Source: Sodiomyces alkalinus F11 | Lineage: Eukaryota > Ascomycota > Sordariomycetes > Glomerellales > Plectosphaerellaceae | Length of the DNA: 64,000 nt | Direction of reading: 5' to 3' | NCBI RefSeq assembly: GCF_003711515.1 | Contig: NW_021167087.1 | Coordinates: 1,856,799-1,920,798, forward strand | Position numbers and translations under genes: made by a program | The notes under the pieces: model-generated | The model's input: the letters and a program-made list of their open reading frames with translations, nothing else | The model's database searches: none | Told to the model about the DNA's origin: nothing | Shown: in pieces, positions 2,215 to 60,317 of the stretch | How positions within the stretch are numbered: the stretch's first letter is position 1 | Layout of the letters: the number at the start of each line of letters is the position of its first letter

Positions 2215-4279
2215 CTAGTAGTATCTTCGTTCCCTCTGCGACTCTAGGTCCGTATCGTACCTATCATAGCTATGTGCTCCGGGCCCGCGAGGACCCGGTT
2301 GTTGTTGGCCTTGTGGTGTTCCCGCACCATCAAAATAGTCAGAAAAGTCGAAATAGTCGTCCTCTTGCGGCGCCATTGGCGCCGTCATGTTTCGTTGTGG
2401 AACGTGGCGGGGCCCAGGTCCCGGTCTAATACCCGGCCCGCCTAAGGGCATGGGGCCCGTGGCACTCCGGACCGGGGGGCGCGGCTGGTAGCCGGGTCTC
2501 ATGCTTCCGGGAGGACCGGGGCGGAGTGCACGGGGTGCGGCTGATCGGTCCGAAAATGTTGATGGGGCCAGACTGGCACGGTCACTGGGGTATTGTGAAG
2601 AATCCACATAGCCGGGCCTGCCCTGCCCAGATGGCGCCCTGCCGTAACTGTGGAGTGACGGCGCTGTCGGAGATCTCACTGGGGGAGGGAAAGACGGCAT
2701 GGTTTCCGAAGAATAGGTGGCCGGACTCTCGGTCATGATGTTATGATGAAGCGTGGATGAAGAGGAAGAAAATGTCGAGGCGTGGTGCAAAGGGGGAGGG
2801 CCGTTTCGCAGTGAATGGGACGTATCCGAGCGCGCCGGTGGCCCATAATACTCGTCGCCTCTTCGTGAGGGCAACGAGCCGGCTAGTGATATCGGGGTGC
2901 TGTATCCCATTTCGGCGCTGTTGCTCGCAAGCGGAGCTTCGGGCGCATAGCTGTTGGACGACGTCGTTGTGGATGTGCCCCTCCTCGACGGCATCGGTCG
3001 TTTTCGGTCCATCGCGCCGAGTTCGATACTGCCAGGGGTCCCAGGTCGTGACGTATAAGGAGGCAAGGACGCATTCGTTGGTTTCCGATCGAGCTGGGGC
3101 ATCTCGGGAAGTTTGTCGGGTTCGCCCATGTCGGGAAGCGTCGGGAGGGTAGCTTGACGGGATAGCTTGGGGGGCTCGAAACCGTTCTTTAGGGCTTCTT
3201 TGGCTTCCGCCTTGAGTTTCTTCTGTTCTTCCCTAGCGAAAGCCTTTTCCACCTTTTCATGCACGATTTTGGTGAGAGACTTGTTCACTTTGCGTTCGCA
3301 GTAGGCCGAGAGACCTCCATCGGCCCGGGGGATCCAATGCCAGAGGAACAAGACGTAGAAGAGAACGGCGGCAAGGAGGAAAAGGGCGGAGAAGATCCAA
3401 ATGACGAGAGTGAAGAGCATGCCCGACAGGATGACCATCTGCTGTTGGTCTTCCATGGCCAATTGGCGAATCTTATCGAAGAAGCCCAAGATTTCCTGTC
3501 CTACATCGGAACCGCCGTCACTCGAGAGTTTGGCCACATAGACAGACCTCAAGGTCAGGGCGTTGATAACCTGACGGGGCCCAGAACACAGGATGACGCG
3601 AATCCACGCTGCAGGCAGGCTGTTAGCAAAAAAAAAAAAAGGAGTTCGTACACGAGGGCAGAGAGGCTAGGGAGGGGAAAGGGTCCGCGAACATTGAAAG
3701 CTAAAGTAGGTGAAGAGGGCAATGTACTCGGCGCCCTTTTTGCTCTTGGTAAGCTCGGCAAAGACGAGAAAGCGTTTGAAGCCCTGGCCTTTGCCAAAGC
3801 GGAGACTCTCGAGACGGACAGCGATGTTATCGAGATAGCACTCGGCGATGTTTCCTCGCTTCATGACGCGCATGGCTCTGAGCTGTTCAAAGGCAAGGTT
3901 GACAAAGGAGGCAATAATGCAGGCGGAAAAGATCCATTTCGAGATCTGGAAATCAATGGCGGGCTGAATGGCAGAGGACCATCGGTCAAAGGCGAGCAAG
4001 TTGATAGCGGTAAAGGTATCAACACCGTAAACGGCGATGGAGACGATAAGCATAAACCACAAGTAGACGTAGGCGAAAGGAGTGCCGCAGCCTTTAGACT
4101 TGAAGTCGTTGAGATTCTACGAGATGGGGGTTAGCGAACATGTGATCGGACGGGCAGTAGAAGAGTGGGATTGTTCGGGGGAGAAAAGGGGGGGGGAAGA
4201 TGGGCAAGCTTACGATGTAGTCCCATTTCTGCTCAGGCCGGCCCTCAACTGGTTTTCGGCGATGGGTGCAACAGCCCAT
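2215..4279 (-). CDS. KCH1: Kch1/Prm6-family potassium transport membrane protein
   Basis: Three exons: 4279..4214, 4116..3693, 3608..2215, giving 627 residues. Exon 1 encodes MGCC...QKWDYI and exon 2 continues NLNDFKSKGCGTPFAYVY, the hallmark start of fungal Kch1 proteins. Hydrophobic segments follow (LWFMLIVSIAVYGVDTF, WIFSACIIASFVNLAF, and in exon 3 MVILSGMLFTLVIWIFSALFLLAAV). The C-terminal half is a long Pro/Ser/Arg-rich, presumably cytosolic tail, much longer than in yeast Kch1. In yeast this family mediates K+ influx linked to Ca2+ signalling during pheromone response; here the role is inferred. The second donor (GTTCGC) is non-standard but joins FTYFSFQ to WIRVILCSGPRQVINAL in frame, as expected for the family. 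Confidence 0.88.
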
Positions 4280-42258: not shown

Positions 42259-43404
42259 TCATCCAAACCGCTGCCTCGCCAATTCCTTGAGCCCCTTCAT
42301 AGTCCCCTCCTCCCGCTCCCGCCACAAGCGCACCCTTTCCTCCCGCTCGGCCTCCTTCGCCCGCGCAATCTCCTCCCGCCGCAGCTCCCGCTCCGTCTTG
42401 CGCCGCTCCTCCCGCGCCTTCTCCCTCCGCAGCTCGTCCAGCCCACCACCTTCCCCCATGAGCTCGCCATCCCCCACCGCCGCGTCCCCGCCAGGCGACC
42501 CCTCCCGGAACCCGCGCATCTTCTCGTTCACCGCAGCCCGTTTCTCCAGTCGTCTTTCCCGCGTCCCCGGGTCCGCGCGCGGCACCAGCTCTTCCAGCCG
42601 CTCCTTCTGCTCCTTCCGGTCCCTCGCGCGGGCCGCCCGGATGTCCTCTATGCCCTTTTCTCGCCCCGCCTGCGCTTCGGACACACGCTCATCGCGTTGC
42701 GCGGCGAGGTCATCCAAGGTTGGGATCTTGGGGCCGGGACGGCCTGAACCGGAACGTATCGTCGGGGGTAGCGGGGGAACCATGTCGTCGTCGTCCTCGT
42801 CCTCGTCGTCATCTTCATCGCCACTAACCCTGCCGTAGCCCTTGTCGTCCTTTGTGCGGCAATCGCCCCTAGAGCCCTCACGTTCCCAACTCTCGTCCCC
42901 GCGCCGACGATCCCTGTCCCCACCACGCCTATCTGCAGGCCCCGATGGCTGACGTGCCACCGTATCGTCTCGGGACGCAGTATCCGGAGAAAGAAGTTCG
43001 GCCGCCCTCTCCTCAGCCGTTGCGAACATATCCGGATCATACCACCCTTCCCTCAACTCCCCGCGGTTCCACTTCCCCACGAAGCTCTTCCACCGCCCCC
43101 TGGCCTCCCGCTCATCCATGCGCGCCAGGGACTTGCCCTTCTGGAGGTCAAGGTAGTACGCAAAGAGGGCACGGAAAGCGCCAAAGTCAGACTTGGTCAG
43201 CGTCCGGGCGTCGAAAGGAAGGGAAGCGGGCGTCGTGCCGCCGCCGTGTGGAGTGGACGAGCCGTGTCGTCTATGGCGGCGGTCGCGCGATCTTTGCGGC
43301 GATCTGGATCTGGACCTTGACGCATACTGCCGCTTACGTCTCCCGTCTGGAGACCGAGACCGGGTCCGAGAGTGCCTCCCCATATAGCGATCACTCCCCG
43401 GCAT
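42259..43404 (-). CDS. RS-rich, HEL117-like nuclear protein
   Basis: Single exon, 381 residues. The N-terminus is an Arg/Ser domain (RSRSPDGRRKRQYASRSRSR), pointing to mRNA processing. A compact conserved block follows: FRALFAYYLDLQKGKSLA and RGRWKSFVGKWNRGELREGW, ending YDPDMF; from memory this block is shared by fungal proteins annotated as HEL117-like. An acidic stretch (DEDDDEDEDDDDM) and a long charged C-terminal helix (EKAREERRKTERELRREE and EREERVRLWREREEG) complete it. No helicase motifs are present, so the usual annotation as an RNA helicase would be misleading. Likely a spliceosome-associated protein (inference). Confidence 0.7.
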   Translation of the reverse strand: MPGSDRYMGRHSRTRSRSPDGRRKRQYASRSRSRSPQRSRDRRHRRHGSSTPHGGGTTPASLPFDARTLTKSDFGAFRALFAYYLDLQKGKSLARMDEREARGRWKSFVGKWNRGELREGWYDPDMFATAEERAAELLSPDTASRDDTVARQPSGPADRRGGDRDRRRGDESWEREGSRGDCRTKDDKGYGRVSGDEDDDEDEDDDDMVPPLPPTIRSGSGRPGPKIPTLDDLAAQRDERVSEAQAGREKGIEDIRAARARDRKEQKERLEELVPRADPGTRERRLEKRAAVNEKMRGFREGSPGGDAAVGDGELMGEGGGLDELRREKAREERRKTERELRREEIARAKEAEREERVRLWREREEGTMKGLKELARQRFG

Positions 43405-43858
43405 CGCGTGGCTGGGTTACGTGTAAAAGTAAGGCAATAATGGTAGCTGTAATATCTGCCCTCGGAGAGGGTATATTCTTTGGCCCCGGACACCCAGACG
43501 AGCCGCTGCGATGTAGACGGACGAGTAAGAAATCGAGTTGATGGCGGATAGACTGAAATTTCCCAGAGAGAGTGATGCAATGGTCGACAGCAACGGTAAT
43601 CGATTTGTGAGAGGGGTGGGTTTTGTGAGGCAAGCTGTTAAGCTGCGTAGAGACGCCTGTATTAAGGTTGGAAGGAGTTGTCCAACGAAGGATGAAGATG
43701 CGCCGCGCCGGTTGAGTTTGAGATTAAGGTACGTAAGGTACTTCCACGAGCCACCCTGGTAGATGCTTATGTGCAAATTTGCATATACGCATGTGAGACA
43801 ATCGAGCGTATCGTATTAGCGAATTTGAATCTAAGCGACATAGCCACTGGCTTCCAAG
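43405..43858. other. Host DNA between the RS-protein gene and the transposon
   Basis: 454 bases, presumably the RS-protein promoter. Contains GTGCAAATTTGCATATACGC (GCAAATTTGC palindrome) at 43771-43790. The transposon begins abruptly at 43859. Confidence 0.6.
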
Positions 43859-43884
43859 CCGGGTTTGGGGGTGTAGGACAGAGC
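43859..43884 (+). repeat. Left terminal inverted repeat
   Basis: 26 bases, CCGGGTTTGGGGG followed by TGTAGGACAGAGC, matching the complement of 56355-56382 with one 2-nt indel. A GACAG word sits at its inner end. Confidence 0.88.
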
Positions 43885-44210
43885 CCTGACAGAGCTAAAT
43901 CTGTCAGCACTCTGTTGACAGAGTGGCCAGGTAGACAGAATGTAGACATAGTGTCGACATTATGTCAATTTGGTCACTTGACAAGCCTAGCCATAATAGT
44001 ACGTGCATAATCTGTACATGCTGGTCACTTGGCCTGCGCGTGGTCACTATGCTAACCGGTTTTCTGTCCAATAGAACAGAGGGCCAAGGGGCCATTATGA
44101 TAGCCAGGTATTCTGATAACCCTTGTCATAATAAAATGCTAGTAAACTGTCGTGGGTTAGGACATATTACTAAAATAACAGATGTTCAATTCGTAATAAT
44201 GACAGTGTAG
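43885..44210. repeat. Left subterminal GACAG repeat zone
   Basis: Repeated words CTGACAGAG, TTGACAGAG, TAGACAGA, CTGTCAG, and three copies of TGGTCACT (43971, 44019, 44040). This spacing of short direct and inverted motifs inside the TIR is typical of EnSpm/CACTA ends, where the element's own DNA-binding protein attaches. Confidence 0.65.
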
Positions 44211-44843
44211 ACATTAAGTTATTGATTTAGCCATATGCCCGTTCGGTGAAAGATGGCCAGGAGGGATATATGTTAAACTACACCAGATTTTCACGATCAG
44301 TAATATGTCGGTAGCATCGTAATCTGTCTACGGTTTGTTATATATCTCGATGGTAAGATGACCAGCTTACCAGATGGCGAAGGTAAATGGAAATTGGAAG
44401 GTCTACTGCTATTACTACCTTACCTTATTTAACGACCGTTGTTATTTTCATGGAGGTTACGGTATATTCTGGATGCATAGAGGCAATGATATGAACCGTG
44501 AGTACCTTAGTGAACCAGGGAATGAATTTGACCCTTCACGCTTGGTGTAATGGTAAATATTACCTTATCCACTGACCCGAGAGTCTCCCCATGCCTAAGG
44601 TAAATCCTTATTATCCCGCCCATTTGAACCTGTCCAGCAACCCACTTGGTGATAATTCCCTGTGATAGACTCCTCCCGGCTCCCTCAAGACCTCAACCCG
44701 GCAAATTAGCAATGTTCCTTTGGTGAAGTTGAAGAAGAAATGGCAAATTATCCTGCCTGTGATCCTGTGAACGGCGAACCTAGCAAGTAAGATCGTCAAA
44801 ATCAACGTGTAGATAGCAAGTAAATGATGCTAGACTGTGAAAT
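44211..44843. other. Non-coding left arm of the transposon
   Basis: AT-rich, with GGTAAATATTACC-like words near 44550-44563. No gene seen; probably the 3' flank of the leftmost element gene. Confidence 0.5.
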
Positions 44844-45710
44844 CTAGATGTCGCTGGTGGACTCAGCATTATTGGCATTGCCAGCGTTATTGGCTGCGAG
44901 CTCGCGAAAATGATCCTCCTCAGACTGATCGTCACGACGAAGTGGACTATATGCCTCTTGAACTCGTTGGTAAAGCGGTTCACGGCTCGGATTCACAACA
45001 GATTGATAGGGAATACACCCATATATGTTCGTATAGTAAGCATTTGGCGCGGTGGTGAAAGCAGAGACTGCAGAGGGCTCACGGGTCATAGTCAGACCAG
45101 GAGGGGAGGGATAGGTCATGATGAACGCAGAGCGGTCCTGAGCCATGCTTCCAACTCTGCCAGTGTTCTTGGTGACCTTGTCCTTACTGACTTTGGTTAA
45201 ATTGCCAGTGCTCTTCGACATCTTGCTGGCCTTCGTGGCATTGCCGGCCTTCTTGGCCTTGGTTAAATTGCCAGTGGTCTCGCTGGCCTTAGTGGTCTCG
45301 GTCTCGGTGGTCTTGGCCTTGTTTGCTTTGTTAAGCGCGCGTTTTCCGGAAGCATGGGGATTATGGCCTTTTTTGTCGGTGTTCAGCTTCGTGATGCTGA
45401 TAGCGAGAACCTGTTTCCATTCGTCAATGCCTCGGACGTCGGGTTCACCAGGAGGGCCGGGAACAGGGAAGCCGGCTTCGTAAGCAGCATCTCGCCACTC
45501 CGCCACCTTGACAGCATTGTTCTCGCTGGCGGCGGCAAACTTTACGATCTTCTCTCGCATAGCACGAGGGAAGTTGGTTTCACCATTGTATGGGACAATG
45601 GCTGCCAGGTAGAGGCCACAGCGAGGGCGATCGTTAGAATCTTCACGAAAGCTGTCGGCAAAGCGGCGGTAGGCAAGCACCTGGGACTTGACAACTTCGG
45701 AGCGAACCAT
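44844..45710 (-). CDS. Transposon-carried Lys/Thr-repeat protein, unknown
   Basis: 288 residues from the ATG at 45710. The N-terminal ~115 residues (VVKSQVLAYRRFADSF, RPRCGLYLAAIVPYNG, AEWRDAAYEAGFPVPGPPGE) look globular. Residues ~125-190 are a degenerate repeat of K-A-x-K-T and TGNLTK units. The tail is Asn/Ser-rich. A probable 5' intron (GTAAGG donor near 45793, CATAG acceptor at ~45735) precedes the ATG; if upstream sequence is translated, the frame would continue through VAQSNILPSPREN, but no upstream ATG was found. No family recognised; it could be cargo or an accessory transposition factor. Confidence 0.55.
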   Translation of the reverse strand: MVRSEVVKSQVLAYRRFADSFREDSNDRPRCGLYLAAIVPYNGETNFPRAMREKIVKFAAASENNAVKVAEWRDAAYEAGFPVPGPPGEPDVRGIDEWKQVLAISITKLNTDKKGHNPHASGKRALNKANKAKTTETETTKASETTGNLTKAKKAGNATKASKMSKSTGNLTKVSKDKVTKNTGRVGSMAQDRSAFIMTYPSPPGLTMTREPSAVSAFTTAPNAYYTNIYGCIPYQSVVNPSREPLYQRVQEAYSPLRRDDQSEEDHFRELAANNAGNANNAESTSDI

Positions 45711-46548
45711 GTTACCGTCGTGTTCGTGTGGCAGCTATGAGAACTGGACTGTTAGTATTATCCCAGGAAAAGGTGAACTATGAAATCCTTACATTTTCTC
45801 TGGGAGATGGTAATATATTGCTCTGGGCAACTCGGGGGAGGATCTGAAGTTGATTAGTTGGTGTCGTGATCTCGTGATGGGAAAAAAGCTGGAGATATAT
45901 GGCCAGGGGCAAGTTCTTGAAGAGGGAAAAGACGATAGAGATCTTGGAGGTAGACCAGGAGGATCAAGGTCTTATATTTCTAGAGAAGAAGTAAGTCAAG
46001 AAATCAAAAATGAAACCTGGGAGTTTGGAGGCAGGCAATATCGGTCAGTAGAGGCAAGATTGCTCTGGGATATTATCGTAGAGAAAGAAAGATCGTATAT
46101 GCTTGCTGTTGTTACTAGAGAAGGAAGCTGATTGCTGTTATTGTAAGAAGGAAGCTGAAGATGATTGCTCTATCGGGAGGGGGAGATAATTACTATCACC
46201 ATAACCTGTAAGGAAACTTAGAAGATAATATCAATCTAGCTGATTATAATTGTGAGCAAATAGGTATGATATCTGACTGCCTACCGAACTCCTGACCCAT
46301 AGCCGTTATGTCCCTGATAAAACAAATGTTAGAAGTTGTTGGTAAAATGGGTAGTCCGAATCTTGGAAACCATAAGAAGGTATGTCGTGAACCCCAGCGC
46401 CTAACATCCCCCATACCTAAAAGTAGAAAACACCATATCATATCTCTGCAAGGTAGGTTAACCGTTCATCGCCATAACCGAGTCCCCTAACGCCGCCATT
46501 TACAACCCGAAAAAAGAAGTGCAGGAAAAAGAAACAGCAAGGCAAACA
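45711..46548. other. Transposon spacer
   Basis: Upstream region of the Lys/Thr-repeat gene and downstream of the next leftward gene. A + strand frame from the ATG at 45880 to 46131 (84 codons) reads moderately protein-like, but it overlaps the presumed leader of the leftward gene and has no recognised motif. GGTATGAT/CATATCAT words recur. Confidence 0.4.
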
Positions 46549-48141
46549 TTACTGCATACCAGCGACATCGGGAATAGCATCGTCGCTGTCCTGGGCACCC
46601 TCTCCCGATGCATTACCCTGATTAGTCGATGGTAAAATCATCGAATGGGTCTCGAAGTCGCGGTCCCGTGGCCTGAATGCGAATTCATCCTCATCAAAGT
46701 CCAGGAAGTCTTCCTTCTCCATCGACGACCGAGGGAGTTCCGATCTTTTCACCGATTTAACAAGGGTGATATCATCGACGACGTAGTGTTGACTCTGTTC
46801 CGCATGTCGGATTTTGCTAAATCGCATAAGACACCACCGCCAGTCCATTGTGCGTGTGTCAGTAGGGACTCCCGAGGCGATGTCTCGTTTCCACATAAGG
46901 TGGCGTTTGATTGTCATGCACAATTCGACATATATATCTATATGCTAAGGTTAGTAAACTCTTTGGAGTATTGGTTAAAGGCCGGAGATCCTAACTTACA
47001 GAGGCACCAGCGTCGGACTCTTATGTCACTTCCCGCGATGGTAATCCAGCCCCTACAAAAGACAAAAAGGACTTCGAATGTGTCGGGATTAAAGGACTTG
47101 TTCAGGAAATCTTGTAAATTCCTGATGTCCTTCTCTCTTCCGAACATGACAGGAGAGTCTCGCTCCAGCTTGAGGACGTGGGCCTGAACAATTAGTTTAA
47201 CGATGCCAGATGCATTGCCGATGAAGCTTACTTTGAGACTGTACATCGTGCGCGACTTCCATGTGTTGCAGTTCGTCTGGAAGCGTTTTCGAGCAAGGTC
47301 TCGAATCCATTCATTCTCAGGACCCTGGGAATTTCTGAGGTAGAGGCCCACGGTATTTCCCATCCAGGATTTATTGAGGGTGAGCAAGAACACCTTCCTT
47401 GTTGATTGCTCTAGTCCACGGAAAATAGGGCGCAGTTCTTCGGCCCAGTTAGTACTCTCCTTCGTAACATAATGCCGCCTGGCACGCTGGGGGGGGGTTC
47501 GGAGCGTTGGGTGGCTTGGTAAAAATCAGTATATTATAATCATATAAGAAGCATCGAGTAAAAGATATATGGATTTGGCTTACAATGTGTCGCTGAATGT
47601 AGCTCGTAAGCTCGTCCTCCCGGACAGGACCAAGCTTAGTCGTCGAATCATCTGGCTGAGACTCGGGAGCATCGTATCCATCAGGGTTTACATACTCCTC
47701 ATGATTGCCATCATCATGATTGCTATCCAGTATGTGCTCGTCATCTTCGTCGAAAAGATCTGGGTCGATAGGTGTTGTCTCTTGGTGAACTGTTTGAGAG
47801 GTGGAAGTAGAGTTGATTTGACTGTTTTCCAGTTGGTGAAGTCTTTGGGGGTTGATGCCACGTCTAGCCTGATTCTGGTTCTGGCTCTGTGTGGATCGTT
47901 GAGGAGGCCTTACCGGCTTCTGGACTCTATACTGCGGGTTGGGGTTGACGGAGGTCGTACGATGCTGTGGGCGCGATAATCCTATCGTCGTAGCTGCGAC
48001 AGACACCGGACAGACCCTGGACAGACCATGGACAGATGTACAGTCTGACAGATGGATAGATGGACAGAGTGTTGCTTCGACAATTGAAATTCCAGGGTCG
48101 TGTCCTTGAACTTCAAAGGGATTTTACCAACAGAGTGCCAT
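46549..48141 (-). CDS. Transposon-encoded protein of unknown family, divergent from the transposase
   Basis: Five exons: 48141..48128, 48016..47584, 47486..47232, 47183..47000, 46937..46549 (424 residues). The open frame at 48006 begins with GTG, so the start is placed on a 14-nt exon (ATG GCA CTC TGT TG) whose donor GTAAAA and acceptor GTCCAG restore the frame. The first ~145 residues are Gln/Asn/Pro-rich then acidic. A globular part follows: NWAEELRPIFRGLEQSTRKV, LLTLNKSWMGNTVGLYLR, EWIRDLARKRFQTNCNTWKS, GREKDIRNLQDFLNKSFNPD and EVLFVFCRGWITIAGS. The tail is acidic. The four main exons are strongly supported. By position it could be the TnpA-like DNA-binding partner of the transposase, but no DNA-binding motif is evident. 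Confidence 0.72.
48005..48075. promoter_or_regulatory. Phased GGACAGA cluster in the central divergent promoter
   Basis: GGACAGA occurs at 48008, 48019 and 48030 (11-bp steps, one helical turn) and again at 48062, with TGACAGATGG between. The same GACAGA word fills the subterminal zones of the transposon. The cluster overlaps the first intron of the leftward gene and lies 470-520 bp upstream of the transposase ATG. Confidence 0.55.
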
Positions 48142-48531
48142 GAAATAGAGAGATGGTGAAACGAGAAAATCAGAGATGGTGAAAAGGGAAAATCAGAGAT
48201 GGTGAAGATGAGGGAGGTTTGAGGTATTTACCCTACCTCCCGCTAATATAATGTATGGTAAGGTAAGGTACCTTAGATCGTGGAAGGAGTAACCGAAGGC
48301 GGGCAGGTATAACTTTAAAATAACGGGCGCGTGATTCATGATATCACGCGTTTTAGCTCCAGGTTCTATGTCGATTTTTTTTTGGGGGGGACGGCTTAGG
48401 TAAGGTCTATCAGGCGAGGTGGTGAACTTCCGAATACCCTATACGATATACCTTACCACGAAAAACTTCATGAGGTGCTTTACTGATTCTTCAGATAAGT
48501 GTAGTCTGCCTCTTTTTTTCTTTCTATTAAG
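48142..48531. promoter_or_regulatory. Bidirectional promoter region of the transposon
   Basis: 390 bases between the two divergent ATGs. It contains 2.7 tandem copies of a 23-nt unit (AGAGATGGTGAAACGAGAAAATC, 48149 to about 48212), a GGTAAGGTAAGGTACCTTA word at about 48255-48273, and a perfect inverted repeat CGCGTGAT / ATCACGCG with a 7-nt loop at 48328-48350. Confidence 0.5.
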
Positions 48532-51500
48532 ATGTATTCCTCTGGTGGGAGGAATATCTTGCCCCGGCGGCCGCCTCCTGGGGCAACACGACCACCTCGA
48601 TTTTCACCATATGCCCTTCAACTTCCCAGAGAAGAAGAACTTGTACCGCCGGGTCAAGATGCCTCTACTCGCCGCCAGCGTCGTCGTCAACAGCTCAGAG
48701 ATGCTCGTGCTATTAAGAATAGCGAGATCGTTGACTGGTTAAATAATGACGACTTCGGGGTAGCTGGGGATGTTACCGTTGAGCGCCCTGAGCCTGAGCC
48801 TGAGGTAGATATTCATATGGAATTGGTCCCGACACCAATGATCGTTCACCAGATCATGCCGATGCTAGTGAACTCCTGGGCGCTGATGCTCTCGACACTA
48901 TCGAAAGGATACTCGACCATGCAAGGGCTGGTGAAATCAACGAAGATCCGGAGTCTGATACGTCGTCAATATCAGGACAACATCTGCCCGAACAGCCCGA
49001 CGAGGAAACTCCTATCGCACCTGCGCCGGTTCTCGAGGACAACATTAACAATGAGTCGGAAGAGGAACTGGAAGAGCGATCTGCCTCAGCTACCCTTGAT
49101 TTTACGGAATCAACGACCCTGGATTTTACAGAATCAGTCACTCTCGATGCCTCAGAGTCACATACTGCAGAGAATTCCGCGCCCAGTTCACATTATCATT
49201 TACCAGTGGACACCACAGAGGAGGTTCGCCACACGCCATTGGATTTCACTATGTCTGTGACGGCTTTCAAGATGGCCTTGCTAGTCACAGACGCGAGTTT
49301 TTCACGATCCACCTGGACTGCCCTTGTCGAGATTTTACGGACGTCCCCCATTGAAGAACTTCGAGCTTTACCGAAGGAAAAGGACAGCCTTGTCAAGCAG
49401 CTCAAGTCCCAGATACCGTTATGCACCATTCGTAAAAAGGTTGTCACTCTCGATGCATCTAAACTACCGAACCGGGCTCTTCACGTCGAAGATTTACTTG
49501 CCTTTGACTTGAAGCATATGCTGGAGACAATGCTTAGTTCGTCAAGCATTCGCAAACTGACATATCAGGGTATGTTTTCTTTCCCTGCCTACCTTCCAGG
49601 TTATGGTATCAGGCTAATTAACCGACTTTTACTAAGGAATGGCTCGTTTTAACCCCTCAGGGAGAGAAATGTGGGATTCCAGGGTTTGGGGTGAATCACT
49701 TCGCACGACATCCGGTCAATTTCACCGATATACCGATAAAACGCCTATCTTCCCGTCTGACTTCGTGAAACACCGCTGCTACGACAAGCGCTGTTGTCCC
49801 GATAACGCCGCGCCTAGACATACTGGACGAGTTACCTGGGCAGGGTTGGACTATTCTGACGACGCGAGAAAACGAGGCACTGTTGGGGATCCTATCGTTT
49901 TCATCGAGCCGCTATTTACGCCCCAGACACTGCCCCCAGATAGCAGAGAAGCCTTTACGCAACTCCCTGCTTTTACGCCAAGCGCTGCGTTTCAGCGTGA
50001 AGTTATCCTCGGTGAAAAAATGGCGGTAAGGCTACCCGCCAGTACTGTCGTTGAAAGGGTCGAGCCTTTTCTTTTTTACGACTTTGATCCAAAGAGACCC
50101 GATACACACTCCCCTCCGCCGACCGCGTATAACGTGATCCGATATATCCTGGATGGAGACACTCGACAGTTTAGGGCTTTGATAATTTCAAACCCACACC
50201 GCGGTGAACTCGAGATTCAGACATACGGGCGCGACTGGTTTGTTAACCAGTTCGATGGTCAGCGTCAGCCAGTCCTATCACTGCCATGGAAGCTTTTCTG
50301 TGATGCGTTTGGGGTTTACCGAAATATGTACAGGTCAATCCTCGGCATCTACGGTCTTCCTGCATTCCTGCCGGATAGTATAGGCACCCGGCGTGCCCAC
50401 GTTTTACCAATCACACTCGTTCCTTTTGGCGCAGACCATGTCGAGGCCCTCCAGAGTTTAACGCAGCTAGGCCAGTTAGATCAGGGATGCCGTCTTACGA
50501 TCGCCGGAAAAGACCAGTTCGTGTGCGCCTTTCCCCTCTGCTTTCTCGGAGATATGGTTCAGCAACAGGAACTCTCTGGTTGCCTGTCATGGCGAGCATC
50601 AGTCCCTTGTCGTGAATGCCTTATTACGACAGCGCAACGATCAAACCTTGACTTCGATGTCATCAAGAATGGCCGGTTTTACCATCATATGCAACGTACT
50701 CGTAAGGAATCCGAGGTTATTCCTCAGGTCAAGGCAAGACGCGAAGCATTCAGAGCAGTGGGACTACGAGAGGAAGATGATTTACAGCGTGCAGTCGCCT
50801 TATGGACCCCAGCCCTTGATCCGTTTAGGACAAGGGTACCAGATGCAGCACACTCTGAATTAACAAGCCTGGTGAAAACAGTACATCGTATTCTCCTAGC
50901 CCATATTATCAGGTCGCAATACCACGAGGACTATTTACGATGGTTTCAACAGTTCCGACTCCCACCAGGGTATAAGCGTATTCAATCACCTCTTACACAC
51001 GCTGAATCTTGGCGGATTATGGAATGCAGCATGGCTTCTATTATTGTACCGGTGATACTACGACATTTTCTCTCGCCTCATCATATCCACCCAGATTTCA
51101 CCGCCGCTATTGTATCAGAAGCACCGAATTTCTTCCCTGACGCCTCTAATCCAGGATCTGCGTCTTCCATCGTCGTCAAGTGCTTCTGGAACATTGCCAA
51201 GTCTAACTTGCAGGTCTGCGGGCGACACCCCCCACCACTTACACGTACCGAGTTTCTGCGTGTTGTTATGTCTGGCCGCAAGTCTTTCCAACTGCTAGTA
51301 CAGGCTGCCGCGAAAAGCATCCGTTCACAAAATCCGAGAGGGAGGCAAAAGACACAGCAAGGTTAGTTGGTGAATCTTCTCTTATTTGACTACCAAATTA
51401 AATGCCGATACTAATATCTATTTACGATATTAGTTCAAATTCCCGACAACCTGACTCAAGCAAGCCAAATCACAACTGCGACCGGCTTCACGAACATAGG

Positions 51501-52611
51501 CTCAATAAATGGAGATACCCTGGATCCTGAGAAGTTGACCGGATCCAAGAAAGCGCTAGCCTATTACCGTATGAAGGGTTTACTAAACGTTCATGTCGGT
51601 TTACATCTTTGGGATATTTCCTATACATATGGGATGTGTCGCAATGCCTTTACTCTTCTGGGCGAGGATAAGCATCGGTATGTCGTACTAATGGAATTTG
51701 CCTGGGTAGCCCTGCTGTTTACTGCGCTGACATAAAATCTTCTATCGTCCAGGGAATATAAGAGGGATATCACCAAGACAAACCATCGAAACGCAGCTTC
51801 CACTCTAATTTTTCGCGAAAGAATCAGAAAAGCGATGCAATTCGGTCTCGCTGGTTCGTACGAGACTTCCTATCCCGATATTCACAACGCCTTTTGTCAT
51901 TTCCGTCGGGATTGTAAAACTCTGTCAATCAGAATTGAGAATCAGATGCAGGTCGGCTCGATCGAGGAGGATGCAGAATTAGAGCCTCTAGCCTGGGCTA
52001 TTAGAATCAAGGATGATCCAGAACATCGAAGGCCTAGACAGAGTCGACTTCTAAAACAGACAGCTATACAACAGCAGGATGATCCGCTTCTACGTGTTCT
52101 TCAACCGTCCAAGGAACCCGAGGATGGTGAATTTTACCAACTGCTTCAGAAAGCATACAGGGACGACTATAACATGACAAACATACCCGTCGTAAAAGGA
52201 GACACTCCACGATGGAGTGGCAGGATTGCTTTCACGAGAAGGTTCGCTTATTTTACCTTATTATATATTTCTCTGCAGGTTAACTAACTTATATTCTATC
52301 TTAGCAAGAATGAAGATATCTGTTTTAGCTGCGGCGACTTTGTTTGGACAGGAAGTCCTCGCCGCCTTGCCCGTATCGACGGTGTTTTCGGGCATAAAAT
52401 CTCCTCGTCCTACCGAATCTTCTTCGTGCTCACTTTCACCAACTCCAACACGACAGAACTACCTCCAGATGAAATCCTTGGATGCCCAGTCTATAAGTTA
52501 ACAGACTTCCGCCATATTGCTGGGCTTCCGGCCATTCACCCGGACCGTGAATGGATTGTGCCAAGGGAGGATAGGACGCTGCTAATCCGCCTTTTGATAT
52601 CTATATTGTAG
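48532..52611 (+). CDS. tnp2/CACTA-like DDE transposase
   Basis: Exons read as 48532..48804(?), 48954(?)..49569, 49637..51361, 51434..51677, 51753..52241, 52305..52611, about 1,217 residues. Catalytic-region landmarks: LPWKLFCDAFGVYRNMYRS (Asp at ~50302), then RRAHVLPITLVPFGAD, then FPLCFLGDMVQQQELSGC (Asp at ~50551) followed by SVPCREC (CxxC, ~50608), the pattern of Transposase_21 (xxDGxxPY..., NDFPAYxxLSG...CPxC). A Glu in HAESWRIMECSM is a candidate third acid. Upstream, SGREMWDSRVWGESLRTTSG and PIFPSDFVKHRCYDKRC, and downstream the C-terminal SYRIFFVLTFTN...GCPVYKLTDFRHIAGLPA block, recall large ascomycete transposon proteins. The first intron is uncertain because the frame must change somewhere between 48803 and 49260. 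Confidence 0.75.
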
Positions 52612-53214
52612 ACAGAGGGCAGTGCGGTAGTTTGCAGACTAGGAGTAAGAAACAGAGGACGGAATTTTAACCGTTTTACCACTACCTAATAAACGCCTTA
52701 TACCAGATCTCTATATAACCAGCTGGGTACCTTGCCTTGCATATTAATTCTGTTCTATCTTATGTGCTATTCTTGCCTGCAACGACCTTAATCTCACCGT
52801 GCCTTCACGAAGTTATGGCAGGAAGGAGCACCAATTAGGTACCCGTAAGAGCACCTTCCACATCGTGTATACGCGTGATCGATATTTTACTACACCTACT
52901 GTTGTTCTTTTACGGATTCTTTTCTCTCAACCTCTCCATCTTCCCATCCGTCAAGTTTCCGGGTCTCCCACCGCGTTCAAGATCCACGTTTTCACAGAAG
53001 AAGAGTAAGATATAGTTATATTTCACTACGGCCGTCACTGATTAGGATTCATTTAACCATCCTCTTTCTAGCACACCACATTCCTCTCCAAAGAGAAAGC
53101 CAATATCCAAAGCATCAAGGTTCAAACATCTGATCAATGTGAGTTGCTATCTCCCGTATATTAACCATCTTCGACGCAATATTTACGAAGGCTCTGATAT
53201 TAACTATAACCAGC
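52612..53214. other. Transposon spacer with probable 5' UTR intron
   Basis: No clear gene. A GTGAGT...ATAACCAG pair (53139 to ~53213) immediately before the next ATG looks like an intron in the leader of the small acidic gene. A 69-codon frame at 52799-53008 is weak. Confidence 0.45.
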
Positions 53215-53803
53215 ATGTCTTCAGCCGCAGAGAACAATGGAACAACCCATCACGATGAAGATGGAATGGTAAGAGTCCTTCTCCTGTACTGGTACTCTAT
53301 AAGGTATTATCTAACGAATAACTAAACAGGGAAACTCCCCTTCCATGGCCCAGAACGTTTTGGGTATCTCTGACGATGAGGATGATCTTATTCTCCTTGA
53401 CCGCGTCTTTGAAGCCATGAGACTTCACCATCGGGCCATTCACAAGGTCATTAATTGCATGAACCGCATGAATCAGGCTCTCGAGGACCATACCCGTGGC
53501 ATGAGTTCTAACAAAAATAACCTCAGGCTCTTCGCCGCCACAGTCCAGGCTATGGCTGAGGCTTTCGAGAAGACCGAGGAAGTTGTGCGTATGCGGGAGG
53601 ACCTCAGGGAAGATACTCGTCGTATAATGGGACTTGCGGGAATGCCTCTGCAGGACATCATTAACCATCCTGCCGCCACCAACCGTTCTGCGTTCACTAA
53701 CTCTCGTGGACAGACTGGCAGTGACGAGAATGAGGATGCCAACGCGGACATTACCATCCCGGACATTGAGGATGAGGATGACGAAAACAAGGAGAACCTG
53801 TAG
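53215..53803 (+). CDS. Small acidic helical protein of the transposon
   Basis: Two exons, 53215..53268 and 53330..53803 (175 residues); donor GTAAGA, acceptor AACAG. Exon 1 encodes MSSAAENNGTTHHDEDGM. The middle (ILLDRVFEAMRLHHRAIHKV, then MNRMNQALEDHTRGM and QAMAEAFEKTEEVVRMREDL) is strongly helical and probably forms a coiled coil. The C-terminus is acidic (DIEDEDDENKENL). It has no recognised family. Placed just after the transposase in the same direction, it may be an oligomerising partner or a cargo gene. Confidence 0.65.
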
Positions 53804-54536
53804 CCGGAGGTCTAAGGTAAGAGCTACCGGTATAGCTATTGTGAACTACGACGTGATAAGATAGCTACCTTACATACCACATGAATGTGCCAACAAGGGG
53901 ATTTTACAATTTTAATTCTAGTACTTATTTGCCGTGATGCGTCCTCTTCCAGTTATGGTAGTGGTGTAGAGTTGACGTCCAAATTCTATCACGTGACAAA
54001 CAAAACACGGTCACCCTTACCCCGCTCCAAGCGTGAAAAAACAACGCGTTATAGACCCGCCTAATCCTTTTCTGTAAACCACCACCCGCACTATCATCCT
54101 CCTCCATCAAACCATCACAACCAGAATCATCAACACTATCACTGGAAAGGCATAGACCTTGTCGATTATTACCTCTCTTCAGTCATACTACTGCTCTATG
54201 CCATTTACGATATATTTTCGTTGTACAGAATCACGAAGAATCTGCTGCCATTGTCTTGTTTCTTGGCGCCTTATGCAATCCGCCGTCGTCGGAAATGACC
54301 ATTTTTTGCATTCCTCCCATTTTTTGCATCTACTATTCTCTGCATACTAACCTGGAAGAATCTACTATCGTCTGGATGACAGGAACCCAGCCTCTCTTGC
54401 ATCATATCTTTTGCATATGCTATCTTTTTGCATATTATTTACCACATCTCGAGCCTGTTCACTAACCACGAGCTTCCTTCTAGATGCCTACATACCTTAT
54501 ACTATCTACTGGTGATGATCCCAACCTACCTTACTT
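53804..54536. other. Transposon spacer
   Basis: AT-rich, no gene supported. Contains a CACGTG hexamer near 53990 and TTTTGCAT repeats at 54301-54440 (TTTTTGCATTCCTCCCATTT and variants). Confidence 0.45.
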
Positions 54537-54891
54537 ATGCACCAAGCGATAGACAGCCATCAGTCATCATCTGTCCTGTGCTCTCTGACCAAATTCACTA
54601 ATCCTGATGCTAGGGCCTCCATAGTACCGAAGCGTGCCACACCATATAACGCTGCAGCGGTCGAATGCTCCTGGGTATGATATGAAGCCACTTCTGAGCC
54701 CGTGAAATGTAAATGTATAGTCGATGCATTCCGGTTCGCTGGCGTTGCGGTTCGACGACAGGAATTTATTGCCTCCAAGATTTCAGTATGGTATGTCAAG
54801 GGCTTTAACTTCTACTGCTCGTTTACTTACTAACCTCGGGGCGCATTACCTAGAAATTCAATTCTTCTATAACTGTCCGGGTAGGTGCTGA
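54537..54891 (+). CDS. Possible small spliced gene in the transposon
   Basis: Tentative three-exon model: 54537..54674, 54721..54790, 54854..54891 (81 residues). Both introns (46 and 63 nt) have GTATG donors and ATAG/CTAG acceptors, and the second has a TTACTAAC branch-like site. The joined frame reads through MHQAIDSHQSSSVLC, VPKRATPYNAAAVECSW, SMHSGSLALRFDDRN and YEIQFFYNCPG. Other joins in this area are also open: an exon-like frame runs from ~54854 to 55089 (SRVDFTVAVYAYYHLDSDF), and a third patch starts at the ATG at ~55253 (MDIDDSNIRHETKPVIY). The region may hold one longer gene or two overlapping transcripts. No family recognised. Confidence 0.3.
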
Positions 54892-55677
54892 AACTCCCAC
54901 GATGTTTTCCTGGAGGTTTGCTCACCGTTTTTACGACAACAGGAAGATCAATAATTCTACTTCGCGCGTCGATTTCACGGTTGCCGTCTATGCTTATTAT
55001 CATCTAGATTCCGATTTCCTGTCTTCTTTTCACTATAATCGTCCCTCGAACATCCTAATACTCATCCTCGAGGAGGCCTTGTCGTTCATCCAGGTATGTC
55101 AAACCCATACTAAATTTACCAACCGTGTACTAATTCAGTACACTCAGGATAATCAATCAGTTGTACCACCACACATTCCAGACAGGTAAGCATCGACCTG
55201 GATCTCTCCATCACTGCTAGACATTGCTAACATGCAAGGTATCACCAGATAAATGGATATCGATGACAGCAACATTCGCCACGAAACGAAACCCGTCATA
55301 TATACTGTGTACCTTCACGATCGAGACTCCCTGTACGTTGACGCGATTTTCCACTTCACTAAATCAACTATACTAATGCCGGGACCCTAGGTAGGTTCGA
55401 CTTGTTGACTTTACCTTATATTTAGGTAGGCAACGGTCGCCGTCTAGTCTTCTTCGAGCCACCTTCTGCATTTTGCCACCGACACAATCAGGATAACATG
55501 ATGCTTCCGATCGACAGGATCAGGACAACAAGATTGCTTTCGATCGACACGAGCATAACAACATGATGATTCCTATCGCTGTCAATTCAGGTAGGGTACA
55601 GCAACCTGGCGATAATAATCAGTGAACTGGCAACCTCAGGTTTGAAGCTGGGTGGGTGGTGCATCACCACTTATTTT
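54892..55677. other. Transposon region with exon-like patches
   Basis: Open patches at 54902-55089 and about 55253-55320, with intron-like pairs (GTATGT...TTCAG, GTAAGC...GCAAG), suggest transcription, but no continuous model could be built. Repeats of GATCGACA(G/C) with CATGATG occur at 55496-55565. Confidence 0.3.
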
Positions 55678-55815
55678 CACCAATGAGCATGTAGTATTGG
55701 ATCGCGTTTTTCCACCAATAGAAATCTTATTTTACTCACCAATCAAAAGCCCCAGTGTGTTTCGTATTTTCACCAATCAGAATTTATTAAGCAGAAAATT
55801 TGGACCAATCAGAAT
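55678..55815 (+). repeat. Array of CCAAT boxes in diverged ~33-bp repeats
   Basis: CCAAT at 55680, 55715, 55739, 55773 and 55805, with an inverted ATTGG at 55696. The shared core is TTTTCACCAATCAGAAT, repeated with steps of 24-35 bases. It is either a binding array for the CCAAT (HAP/AnCF-type) complex or a decaying tandem repeat at the right arm. Confidence 0.55.
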
Positions 55816-55879
55816 ATTATATCGTGTACCAGGTATACCGCCTGAGCCATATAATTTTGGACATCTTACTATCTCCGCC

Positions 55880-56354
55880 ATATGTCCAAGCTTAGTACAG
55901 CTGTCCTATCAAACATCTGTCGGGATGGACAGATGCCTAGGCGCCTGGTTATTTAGCAGCGTAGATTGCTGTTCACAACGATATCTGACTGACGTGGTCA
56001 ACTTTCACGATGGTCAGTTGGAGAGAGCAAAAGCTGACAGGGCTCATTATCTGTCCACGGGGCCACTCTGTCAGCTTATCCACTCTGTCAGGTTTATCAA
56101 GTGTCACTGATTAGACATCGTTACGTACCGGCCAAATGGCAGTGACTTAACCACCTGTCAAACGGAACAGTCTGATTATGCAGGTCAATGTGTTTCACTA
56201 AGCATATTACTAGAGCGCGTCACAATATCGCATTGAAATTATGTACACTTTTGTAAACTGTCCACTGCGACATATATCTACTTAGTCATGAAGTTCTAAG
56301 GATGACCACGCCGTAATCTGTCCACCCCTGTCATTCTATCGACACAATGGCCAT
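55880..56354. repeat. Right subterminal CTGTC repeat zone
   Basis: Words ATCTGTCGG, ATCTGTCCAC, CTCTGTCAGC, CTCTGTCAGG, CACCTGTCAAAC, ACTGTCCACTG, TCTGTCCACC and CCTGTCATTC, in opposite orientation to the GACAG words of the left arm. An open frame at 55652-56110 runs through this zone and is not considered coding. Confidence 0.65.
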
Positions 56355-56382
56355 GCTCTGTCCTACAAACCCCCAAACCCGG
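56355..56382 (-). repeat. Right terminal inverted repeat
   Basis: 28 bases, GCTCTGTCCTACAAA followed by CCCCCAAACCCGG, inverted copy of the left end with a 2-nt length difference inside. Confidence 0.88.
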
Positions 56383-56814
56383 GTAGGTTGTCACGGTCTA
56401 GCCCTATATGTTCTCTTCCCCTTCTCCTTATCCAGGAGTCCAGTTAATAGGGCCCGGTTGATATTCATCAACAGTGATCCAGGCGAAGGCGTAATACTCT
56501 AGGTACTATCAAACGAAACTCTGAAAACTTCCAGGTTGGTTAACACGTGCGTAAGATAGTGCAGATGGTCAACCTCTTGGTAAACTCCGTTCATCATGTC
56601 TATCTCTTCTTGTTTCTAACAGTCCATGATTAAAAAAGAAAAAAAGAAAAAAAAAAAAGCACACAAATGGCCTCCACGACGATCCGCAGGGGTATCAATG
56701 CGAGATTGAAAAAAGTCGCCGCTATATGGGACGGTACTACAGTGTTCCAACCCCACCCAAAGCATGAAGCGCGCAGCTGGTAAGAGAGAACAGGGTATCA
56801 ACTTCTCAACGTTT
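56383..56814. other. Host DNA between the transposon and the copper-fist gene 3' end
   Basis: 432 bases, including an A-rich run at 56631-56659. Probably holds the copper-fist gene's 3' untranslated region, so the insertion spares its coding sequence. Confidence 0.55.
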
Positions 56815-58613
56815 TCAACTGGGCTCCCCGTTGTGGTTGTGTATCTCACAGCCGATACACTGACAATCGTCCCCGCAAGGGCAAGACGCCGTTTCGCCCA
56901 AGCAAGACTCGAAGGGATACTCGACGAAGAAGAAGTCGTTCGCTGGCAGCTCCTCGTTGACACCCGAGGCGGCATCAGACGGGGTCTGCGGAGCTGATGG
57001 CGAGCCGCCTGCGTCTGCGGTTAGGCGGGCGTCTGATGTCAAGTCTAAGTTGAGATTTGCCAAGCCGTTCATGTTTTCCTGTACGGCAGGCGAGTTCTTC
57101 TCGCTGATAGCGCCGTTCGTATGGAAATAGGGGTCCTCCACGGTCATGCTCTGCCAAGCTGACCTTATGCAGTTCTGGGTGGCCTCGTTGTACGGGTGGG
57201 CGGCACAGCCGACACACTGGCAGCCATCACCGCATGAGCAGATATGGGATACACCCGCCGCCGCATTTGCCAGGTGAGAAGCAGGTCCCTCGTTCGGGTT
57301 GAAAGGCAGTGGCGTTGTCATTTCATAAGAAGATGGTTGATGTATGGGCTGGCCGAGTTGAAGGGCTTCCATCGCCTTCCTCCACTGTGCAGGTTGAAGC
57401 GGTGCCAAGTACGACCCGTACTGAGGCGGGTAGGTGAAGAGGGTGGGTTGCGGGAAGTATGAGGCATACATCGGCTGGCCAATATTCATTGGACTTTGGA
57501 ACGGGGTCATGGCGGCTCCATTGCCTGCGGGAACTCCGTTCCCAGGCGTCGTGTTCGGCTCTGCGGGTGACTGCACGTTCTTGGATGAGCAGCACCCGCC
57601 TGCTTGAGGCTTAGGGGCAATTCTAGGACTGGAAGCCGCACTGTCGGGAGGAGTATCTTTTATTTTCCCTGGAGGTGCGGCGCAACATGACCGAGCTCCT
57701 GTCGTCTTGACTGCGGTTGAAATTTCAGACACTTCTGCAATCCCGGAACCGACTACGGAAGACAATGCCGGTGCCTCTTGAGAATTGTGGGACACGAGGG
57801 GCGCCATGGGCGGCTGGTATAGAGGGTATGTCATCGGACTGTGGAGTGACCCGTTGGGGCTCAGAGGGACTCCCTGAGTGTAGTCCAGACTATGCCGGGG
57901 AGTCGGCGCCATCACAAAAGGGACGCTGCCATTCAACTGGGAAGGCACCGTTTGCGACATGTCGTAGGCGGGCAAGATGTTTGTTTGGCTTGGGTCCATA
58001 CGCTCGAAATTGGCGGCACTAAAAGACTGCTTGCGGCCGTTGGCTTTGGCATTCGGTTTCGAGACGCGATACGTGGAGCTAGTTGTCATAGGCTTCATGG
58101 TGGCTGGCGAGGCGGGCAGCGCCTCGCCAGCGGGCGACTCGACTTTAATGACGCCTGGGCCGTTGGAGTTCGAACCGTTGTTGCTGCTGGAAACGGCGCC
58201 GTTGGATCCACAGTTGCATTTTTGCTTCCTGGGGATGGCGGCTGTGACGCTGCCACATCCACAGCCGCGGGACGGCGGATGCGGGCATGAACTGAGCGGT
58301 CTTCCGGGTTTCCGGACGGGGATCATCAACCGTTCATTGGCGTGGGTACATTTGGTGGAACGATGGCCCCGAATGCATGGCTCGCTAGGTGACGGAGGAA
58401 AAAAAAACGAGTTAGTTTTGGTTTCGATACCATGCGCACTTGCGGGTTCGAGAGTAGCAGACTCCAAATAGGAAGGTTTTGAAAGGGTTCTGTTCGGGTG
58501 AATTGATCCAGCCGGAGCAGTAACCGCTAGAAAAAAGGGGTAAAAAAAAGAAAACACAGGTGAGAGGAAGGAGTGACTAACCAAGCCATCTTCTGGCCGT
58601 TGATGATTGGCAT
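56815..58613 (-). CDS. Copper-fist transcription factor (Mac1/Cuf1/GRISEA-type)
   Basis: Two exons, 58613..58582 and 58384..56815 (533 residues). Exon 1 gives MPIINGQKMA and the join completes MACEPCIRGHRSTKCTHANE, the Zn-binding copper fist (C-x2-C-x8-C-x-H), followed by the minor-groove GRP motif (RKPGRP). Two C-terminal cysteine motifs, CSCGDGCQCVGC (~57200-57250) and CPCGDDCQCIGC (~56835-56890), each followed by His, match copper-sensing repeats that silence Mac1/Cuf1/GRISEA when copper is bound. Extra CC pairs (CCAAP, CCSSK) lie in the middle. It probably activates copper uptake genes under starvation (family-based inference). The second exon is open upstream to 58584 in frame, but only the spliced start supplies the copper-fist N-terminus. 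Confidence 0.93.
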
Positions 58614-60317
58614 TATGGGCAGCCGAGGCCTAGGCCAGCGAGGGGCATCTAAGTGCGGATAAAGGAGATGGCGAAATGAATGTGCAGCGTCCTCCGCTCG
58701 TGCCGATGTAAAAGCTTGAGCGGTGCTACTGCGATAGAGGCTCCAGACACCCCGGAACAAAAGATGAAAGTTCCGCTCGTGTAGTTTCGTCGGTGGAAGA
58801 GTACGATTCAGAACGACAACCAGGCAGAGCGAAGACCGACGGTTTTGGGCTCACAAAAATGAGCACGTGCTAGAAGATTGGGAAAGAGGCGAGAAAAAGG
58901 CCGACAAGGGTTTAACGAAGGGCGACGGCGTTACATGTAGTAGTCATCGGCCGAAGAGAAGGCTGAATTTCGGTAGGAGGAAGGGGTACGTTGTATAAAG
59001 GCGAATGCGCCGCACCCAGAAAAACGCGCTGGGAAGTGCGGGGGAGGCTGATTGGGTTGCGCTTAGTTGGACGAACGCATGGACGAGCGTTCAGGGAACG
59101 TTGGATCGTTGGATGACGGCCTGGTAGGTAAGCGGCCAGGGTACCTACCGGTAGTACGTGTAGGAAAGGATGTGACACTCGTTGCGTGCGTTATGTGTCT
59201 CCGGGGAGCCCCAGGTCGCCAGGCGAAACCGGGTCGATCTCTGACGGCTCTGACCTTCCTTCGCGAGCCAAACAAATGGATGGAGTTTGGTCTGACCGCA
59301 GCTTACCGCGGCAAGGTAAGATGGCACTCAATGGCTCAACGAGTCAAAAGGATCTGTCCGTGGATAGCGTGGAGAGGCGTGGCATGGCGTGGCGTTCGGG
59401 GGAGAACCAGACTGGCTCTTTGCAACCGACGTCCTTCTCCAGGGAGTGTCTCGGGATGCCTGTAGCTAGCTGAAAGCGGGACGACTAAAGCAAGCCTCGT
59501 GGCTTTGGCGAGGGTTTGGGAAAAGTGATTAATGAGAGCAACGGCGCCGGATGGGCGTTGACCATGCTTAATTGATGCTGATGTGTGACGCCGCCTGCAA
59601 GTTGAGGAACAGCGAAAGGCGGCCGCGGTTGAGTGGTGGTTGACAGTGGTAAGTGACGGTATGAAGTAAGGTACGTGTAGTGTACACAGAGGAATCGGGA
59701 ATTCCTGTTGGTGGGGTCGATGGGCGGGAGTGGGGTCAGATTTCACATTTCAGAACTGTTTTTGAATCGTATCCACACGGTACTCGATAAGCCCCACCGC
59801 CTTGCGAGATGGCCGGTTCCTTATCTACCAATATGGGACTTTGCAAGTGGGTTCTGGGGAGCCACCGGCTTTCCCGTAAGTGGTTTAACCTGGTGTTGAG
59901 AAGATGGTCTTGCCTTGCCGGGGGGTGTTTATCGGGACCTAAGAGTGAGCAAGTTTTCGTGATCACTGGGACCAGGGCCCCCCAGTCGTGGCTTCCTTTG
60001 TCACTTGACGAAGCATGTATACACGTGTAGGACTACAAAGTCAGTAATCAGTAGTCATGCCAGGTTTGTACACCTTATGTACAGTTTGTGCATCAACGCA
60101 CTAGGTATTCAGTGGTGTCTCCCCGGTGCGTTTTGACTCCAGGTTTTCCTTCTTCAGAGTTCTTATCTCGTAAAACGATGAGAGTGAGTTATGTTTGGAA
60201 ATTTGCTTCCTACCCGAGTTGTTCGGACAATGCTTGACGGATGTCAAGACGTTTCTGCTCGCCGTATTTGCAGTATCATTTCATCAGTCTCTACCTAGGT
60301 AGTCCTGGGCCCCGCCA
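58614..60317. other. Upstream region of the copper-fist gene, no gene seen
   Basis: About 1.7 kb. Several overlapping short frames occur at 59063-59966 on both strands, without domains. A tandem GGCGTGGCATGGCGTGGCG word occurs at ~59374-59395. A copper- or iron-response element could not be identified with confidence. Confidence 0.5.

Follow-up and report, generated by a model that had tools for sequence, protein, structure and literature searches.

We report that positions 43854 to 56387 of a 64,000-nucleotide stretch of the Sodiomyces alkalinus F11 genome (contig NW_021167087.1; the whole stretch is referred to below as the window) very probably represent a cut-and-paste DNA transposon of the CACTA/EnSpm-Mirage-Chapaev-Transib clade. 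The element appears closest to Plavaka and would carry, besides a DDE transposase gene, the genes g1, g2, and probably g4 as the transposon family's own components. This 12,534-bp element of a soda-lake ascomycete is bounded by terminal inverted repeats (TIRs) and a 2-bp target-site duplication, its transposase has homologs and the motif order of the clade, and part of its gene set recurs at other genomic copies that show the pattern of repeat-induced point mutation (RIP). Its ends are shared with a large family of miniature inverted-repeat transposable elements (MITEs). An earlier note on this DNA, made from the sequence alone, had proposed a TIR-bounded DNA transposon with several genes at this place, and the ends, a transposase gene, and three further genes were all found. 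The copy in the window, being largely unmutated, can serve as a reference for a lineage of which this genome otherwise shows only RIP wreckage.

Ends of the element and related MITEs

The genome search covered 43.4 Mb in 22 contigs; the window lies on contig C9, and copies elsewhere are named by their contig. The inverted ends that the earlier note had placed at 43859 and 56382, 12.5 kb apart, exceed chance: their 13-base core (CCGGGTTTGGGGG) has 24 matches in the genome, compared with 2 for a reversed-pattern control, and the first 100 nucleotides of the two ends align with a score of 45, whereas the best of 200 shuffles reached 22. Two of the 24 core matches are the window ends themselves, one is the left end of a large copy on C5, and the other 21 were examined. 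Fourteen of these have a matching right end ~154 bp further on, five (L005, L032, L034, L035, and L037) are variant copies, incomplete copies, or different elements, and two (L033 and L040) look like chance. Because CCTAC precedes the core in 18 of the 21 examined matches, we place the true ends 5 bp outward on either side, at 43854 (CCAAGCCGGGTTTGGGGG) and 56387 (reverse complement CCTACCCGGGTTTGGGGG). The termini then read CCTACC..GGTAGG and, as had been noticed before, are not CACTA.

The left TIR (CCAAGCCGGGTTTGGGGGTGTAGGACAGAGCC, plus strand, positions 43854-43885; from the sequence and end-to-end alignment) and the right TIR (CCTACCCGGGTTTGGGGGTTTGTAGGACAGAGC in the minus-strand reading, 56355-56387; from the sequence, alignment, and MITE comparison) are flanked by the dinucleotide TT at 43852-43853, where the ends were set from other copies, and at 56388-56389. 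Longer TIR patterns, whether required to match exactly across a gap of variable length or allowed as many as three mismatches, matched only the window's own ends in the genome. CTGTC/GACAG motifs are clustered in the left (43854-44303, 8 motifs in 450 bp) and right (55938-56387, 9 motifs in 450 bp) subterminal regions, compared with a density of 1.35 per 450 bp inside the element.

We tested the flanks of the ends at 41 TIR or MITE loci: in 36 of them the match to the MITE extended over 120 bases or more, and in 29 of these both ends were found by pattern. The flanking dinucleotides agree in all 29 (28 TA/TA and one TG/TG, L056). Seven loci were dropped for having an end that departed from the pattern; of these, L063, L064, and L066 are TA/TA by eye, the variant L005 is AA/AA by eye, and L039 and L062 have altered ends. 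The window element itself is flanked by TT/TT and the C3 copy by TA/TA. A TA pair by itself could be read as an outward extension of the inverted repeat, but the flanks with TG, AA, or TT favor a 2-bp duplication. Three observations do not fit this account of the ends: the seventh dropped locus, the MITE-like L061, has disagreeing flanks (AA/TA by eye), as does the MITE-like L032, which lies below the match threshold (TA/CA by eye), and the left end of the window element (CCAAGCCGGG) differs from CCTACCCGGG at two of the first 10 bases.

Most of the other TIR-core matches are ~160-bp MITEs. A DNA search with one such element as a query, in which 40 of 80 candidates were scored (the query included), gave 40 nearly full-length places: 24 at 95 to 100% identity, 3 at 88 to 92%, and 13 at 83 to 84%. 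The search for other copies of the same TIRs that the earlier note had suggested thus turned up further elements sharing these ends, with 24 core matches and at least 40 MITE places. The first 33 bases of the MITE are 91% identical to the right end of the window element, and the MITE contains five CTGTC motifs; its interior has no similarity to the window element beyond short stretches. Alignment scores to the left end of the MITE are slightly higher for the window ends (52 and 51) than for the copies on C5 (48), C3 (44 and 39), and C7 (39), which picks out no single MITE parent. The large MITE family is tied to a plausible parent lineage, and its high identity points to recent mobilization by some transposase of this lineage. 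With dozens of tiny relatives bearing the same ends, the family appears to have been active recently.

Many MITEs (for example, L004, L038, and L053) lie within TACCTA/TAGGTA sequence that resembles their own ends, which suggests that they insert into or beside such motifs. At locus L035 (G000:C5:2807000-2816000, with the TIR at 4265 on its minus strand), the sequence starts with CCTACCCGGGTTTGGGGGG, is preceded by TG, and diverges from both the window element and the MITEs after a match of only 19 nucleotides. This locus is possibly a further family sharing the same ends.

The transposase and its place in the clade

The body of the transposase gene lies on the plus strand at 48805-52611 (exons 48805-49569, 49637-51361, 51434-51677, 51753-52241, and 52305-52611; splice sites were placed by hand, guided by homology). 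Its main exon is 31 to 45% identical to five proteins across 84 to 99% of the query, and two of these proteins come from Claviceps. One of the matched proteins, P0002 (32% identity over 97% of the query, E = 4.6e−80), has a precomputed Plavaka domain (PF18759). The alignment places the two aspartates in FCDAFGVYRN (50296-50325) and FLGDMVQQ (50542-50565) and a CxxC in PCRECL (50605-50622), all on the plus strand, and both D residues and the CxxC are invariant among the window exon and four of the five related proteins. The exon that follows the main one contains HxxxH in NVHVGLH (51586-51606) and E in LLGEDKHR (from 51655), also on the plus strand. The window transposase thus has the order D, D, CxxC, HxxxH, E, and the order D, D, C(2)C, H(3-4)H, E is the one reported for the clade in Kojima 2025 (PMC12730594).

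The transposase had been called CACTA-like; it does belong to the CMC/CACTA clade, but its homology to the PF18759-bearing protein makes it Plavaka-like. Homology of the transposase and the motif order are common to the element and Plavaka (PMC12730594), and the 2-bp duplication seen here (exceptions, L032 and L061) falls within the 2- or 3-bp duplications of Plavaka. In contrast, the CCTACC..GGTAGG ends fit neither TGT..ACA nor CATCA..TGATG, the termini given for PlavakaA and PlavakaB in PMC12730594, and would be a terminus type additional to these two. The Plavaka families reconstructed there are from Agaricomycotina, and some have TET/JBP genes, whereas this element has g1, g2, and g4; Plavaka-related proteins also occur in another ascomycete, Claviceps. 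No TET/JBP family was found in a Pfam scan that covered 10 pieces, with the region from 53.8 to 56 kb compared only with other copies. The same paper describes ESTA as an EnSpm-like, distinct lineage of rust fungi (Pucciniomycotina) with TA target duplications, and by that description the element resembles it in TA target preference and in belonging to the same broad clade (PMC12730594).

With CACTA/EnSpm elements, the element has in common its subterminal repeat clusters, large size, and accessory protein genes; it differs in ends that are not CACTA/CAC, in a duplication of 2 rather than 3 bp, and in having no Pfam transposase match. We file the element as Plavaka-like and outside both of the described Plavaka subgroups, PlavakaA and PlavakaB. 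It is a real lineage within a known transposon clade, so that the earlier suggestion of an undescribed system holds for the lineage but not for the kind of system. Among the matches listed in open-license titles and abstracts (searched for Plavaka, Sodiomyces, the terminal sequence, and CACTA, MITE, or RIP), the element is not described, and it has no match among viral contigs or plasmid records.

Some results speak against this placement or against an intact gene. P0002 scores 24.3 bits against the Plavaka model, under the Pfam cut-off of 26.3 bits, and the main exon of the window transposase itself had no match at E ≤ 1 in the Pfam scan. (A search of the genome with PF18759 found no match, and neither did the controls for that search; a transposase profile had no match among PDB sequences.) Exon 1, at 48532-48822 on the plus strand from the ATG at 48532, is out of frame with the remaining exons after about codon 95, with an apparent one-base difference from the C3 copy near 48.82 kb. 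The frame of the C3 copy is continuous there save for RIP-type stops and an altered start codon. Seven GT-AG pairs would restore the frame (GT donors at 48600-48829, introns of 40 to 140 bases), but none is convincing because each removes sequence kept as coding in C3. Therefore, the earlier description of the enclosed transposase as full-length is doubtful, even though its presence was borne out, and the autonomy of the window copy is unproven.

The frame change may be an assembly error, a later start codon, unusual splicing, or real damage. If the last, the element could be a dead relic whose transposase was abolished and whose MITEs were moved by a relative that is now lost or mutated. We regard this as a serious possibility, though on balance somewhat doubtful: the frame change, the altered left terminus, and the MITEs, which match the window copy only at its ends and so did not arise from it by mere internal deletion, are consistent with it, while the reading frames of g1, g2, g4, and the transposase body are intact and show no RIP, and the more benign causes could also account for the frame. 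The window copy is a largely intact representative of its lineage, which we keep distinct from an autonomous copy.

RIP and the persistence of the window copy

The transposase exon has 18 other matches in the genome, which we grouped into 12 loci. All 18 carry stops (221 TAG, 102 TAA, and 2 TGA in sum), and this excess of TAG and TAA is the pattern expected from C-to-T change at CpA, that is, from RIP. The composite RIP index separates the window element (−0.30; flanks, −0.29 and −0.40) from the copies on C3 (+0.98), C5 (+1.21), and C7 (+1.33), whose unseen ends were set approximately. The flanks of the C5 (−0.13) and C7 (−0.30) copies are normal; those of C3 are RIP-like (+1.32), which counts against a signal confined to the element at that locus.

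The window copy is the only transposase-exon match without stops, and the closest other match in the genome has at most 65% protein identity. Its being alone in the genome would explain why it is un-RIPed, with no need to invoke youth. RIP spares an unduplicated copy however old it is, so the earlier impression that the element is young is not demonstrated.

A recent arrival from another fungus, as a single entry without duplication, would also leave a copy un-RIPed. The GC content of the element (46.8%, compared with 54.6% and 55.4% in its flanks) without a RIP signature and the lack of a close genomic copy are in keeping with such an event. However, the nearest relatives by sequence and by ends are the RIPed copies of the same genome, and a search of ~5.8 billion proteins, of limited sensitivity, found no donor; we therefore consider a horizontal origin unlikely.

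Under the transposon reading that we prefer, the transposase would bind both the CCTACCCGGG termini and the adjoining internal CTGTC repeats, excise the element, and insert it at TA-like dinucleotides. The ~160-bp MITEs, which fall below the length that RIP acts on, were presumably mobilized by machinery of the element's lineage. Host RIP would have destroyed the other large copies, and the window copy would persist with no close second copy beside it. That the large copies are RIPed while the MITEs are nearly identical is in line with a RIP length limit acting within one family.

Accessory genes and neighboring sequence

Genes g1 and g2 lie to the left of the transposase gene and g4 to its right. 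The single-exon g1 model (44844-45710, minus strand), which has relatives in other copies, encodes a 288-amino-acid protein with a Lys/Thr-rich central stretch. The g2 gene (46549-47994, minus strand) has four exons (47994-47584, with an uncertain 5′ end, 47486-47232, 47183-47000, and 46937-46549) and is partly annotated as SODALDRAFT_352585 of S. alkalinus F11. The g4 gene (53215-53803, plus strand) encodes an acidic 175-amino-acid protein in two exons (53215-53268 and 53330-53803). Three genes besides the transposase are thus enclosed as had been claimed, and "spliced" holds for g2 and g4 but not for g1.

The g2 gene is found near 6 of the 12 other transposase loci (C3, C5 at 1.01 Mb, C7 at 1.90 Mb, C1, C11, and C10 at 1.75 Mb). 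Five of these six, all but C10, also have g1 nearby, as far as ~11 kb from the transposase in C7 and C11. As in the window, these genes are always read in the direction leading away from the transposase, g1 occupies the outer position wherever it occurs, and the products are roughly 25 to 60% identical to those of the window. Relatives of g4 are one clear (C3 copy) and one weak (C7 copy, 31% over 71 amino acids). Since g1 and g2 accompany related transposases repeatedly and in one arrangement, the view of the earlier note that they are cargo-like is not supported. The simplest reading is that g1, g2, and probably g4 form a helper set belonging to the transposon family. They may assist the transposase by end binding, assembly, or regulation, by analogy with CACTA elements, in which TNPA helps beside TNPD.

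Codon-position comparisons (excess of transversions at third positions; P values uncorrected) strongly favor third positions for the transposase (P of 1e−10 or less) and are significant for g1 (P = 0.004) and g2 (P = 0.0024) against C5. Less favorable to a family-wide helper set are borderline values against C3 (g1, 0.09; g2, 0.07; g4, 0.05), a weak one for g4 against C7 (0.03), the 6 of 12 other transposase loci without g1 and g2, the two sites at which these genes occur with no transposase match, C5 at 1.57 Mb (g1 and g2) and C18 (a g1 fragment), and the assignment of functions to g1, g2, and g4, which is inferred from position. None of the three had a Pfam family above the cut-off in the scan of 10 pieces, g1 and g2 matched only the window's own products among the ~5.8 billion proteins, and g2 had no match in PDB; AlphaFold models of g2 and g1 (mean predicted local distance difference test scores of 42.0 and 38.7) are too poor for use. 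With no relatives found outside this genome, g1 and g2 are candidate transposition helpers or anti-silencing factors. It is improbable, in our judgment, that the element represents a separate ascomycete lineage of the CMC clade that needs lineage-specific helpers, one of them shielding it from RIP or silencing, with MITEs spreading below the RIP length limit. Still less credible, and in our assessment largely refuted already, is a large transposon with captured host genes (Starship-like or a gene-capturing CACTA element): the missing Pfam families, the C18 fragment, and the C5 pair away from any transposase match would suit it, but the order and orientation of g1 and g2 recur beside related transposases at the identities given above, stops interrupt all matches to g1 or g2 beyond the window, so that no intact host paralog turned up, and the Pfam scan found no recombinase family.

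The C5 site at 1.57 Mb (G000:C5:1570713-1573425) holds relatives of g1 and g2, both with stops; it is either a deleted copy or a derivative keeping only the helpers. In the C7 copy (G000:C7:1890165-1908522), ~8 kb separate the g2 and transposase matches, and this copy may hold a nested insertion. Past 53.8 kb of the window, stretches are conserved with the C3 copy, and two candidate open reading frames there were rejected as extra genes, having no codon-position signal (P = 0.56 and 0.21). The conserved stretches at 54432-55027, without clear coding signal, are perhaps an untranslated or regulatory segment. Outside the element, the left neighbor is an open frame (42259-43416, minus strand) without a Pfam match, and the right neighbor is a gene (56815-58629, minus strand) with a Copper-fist domain.

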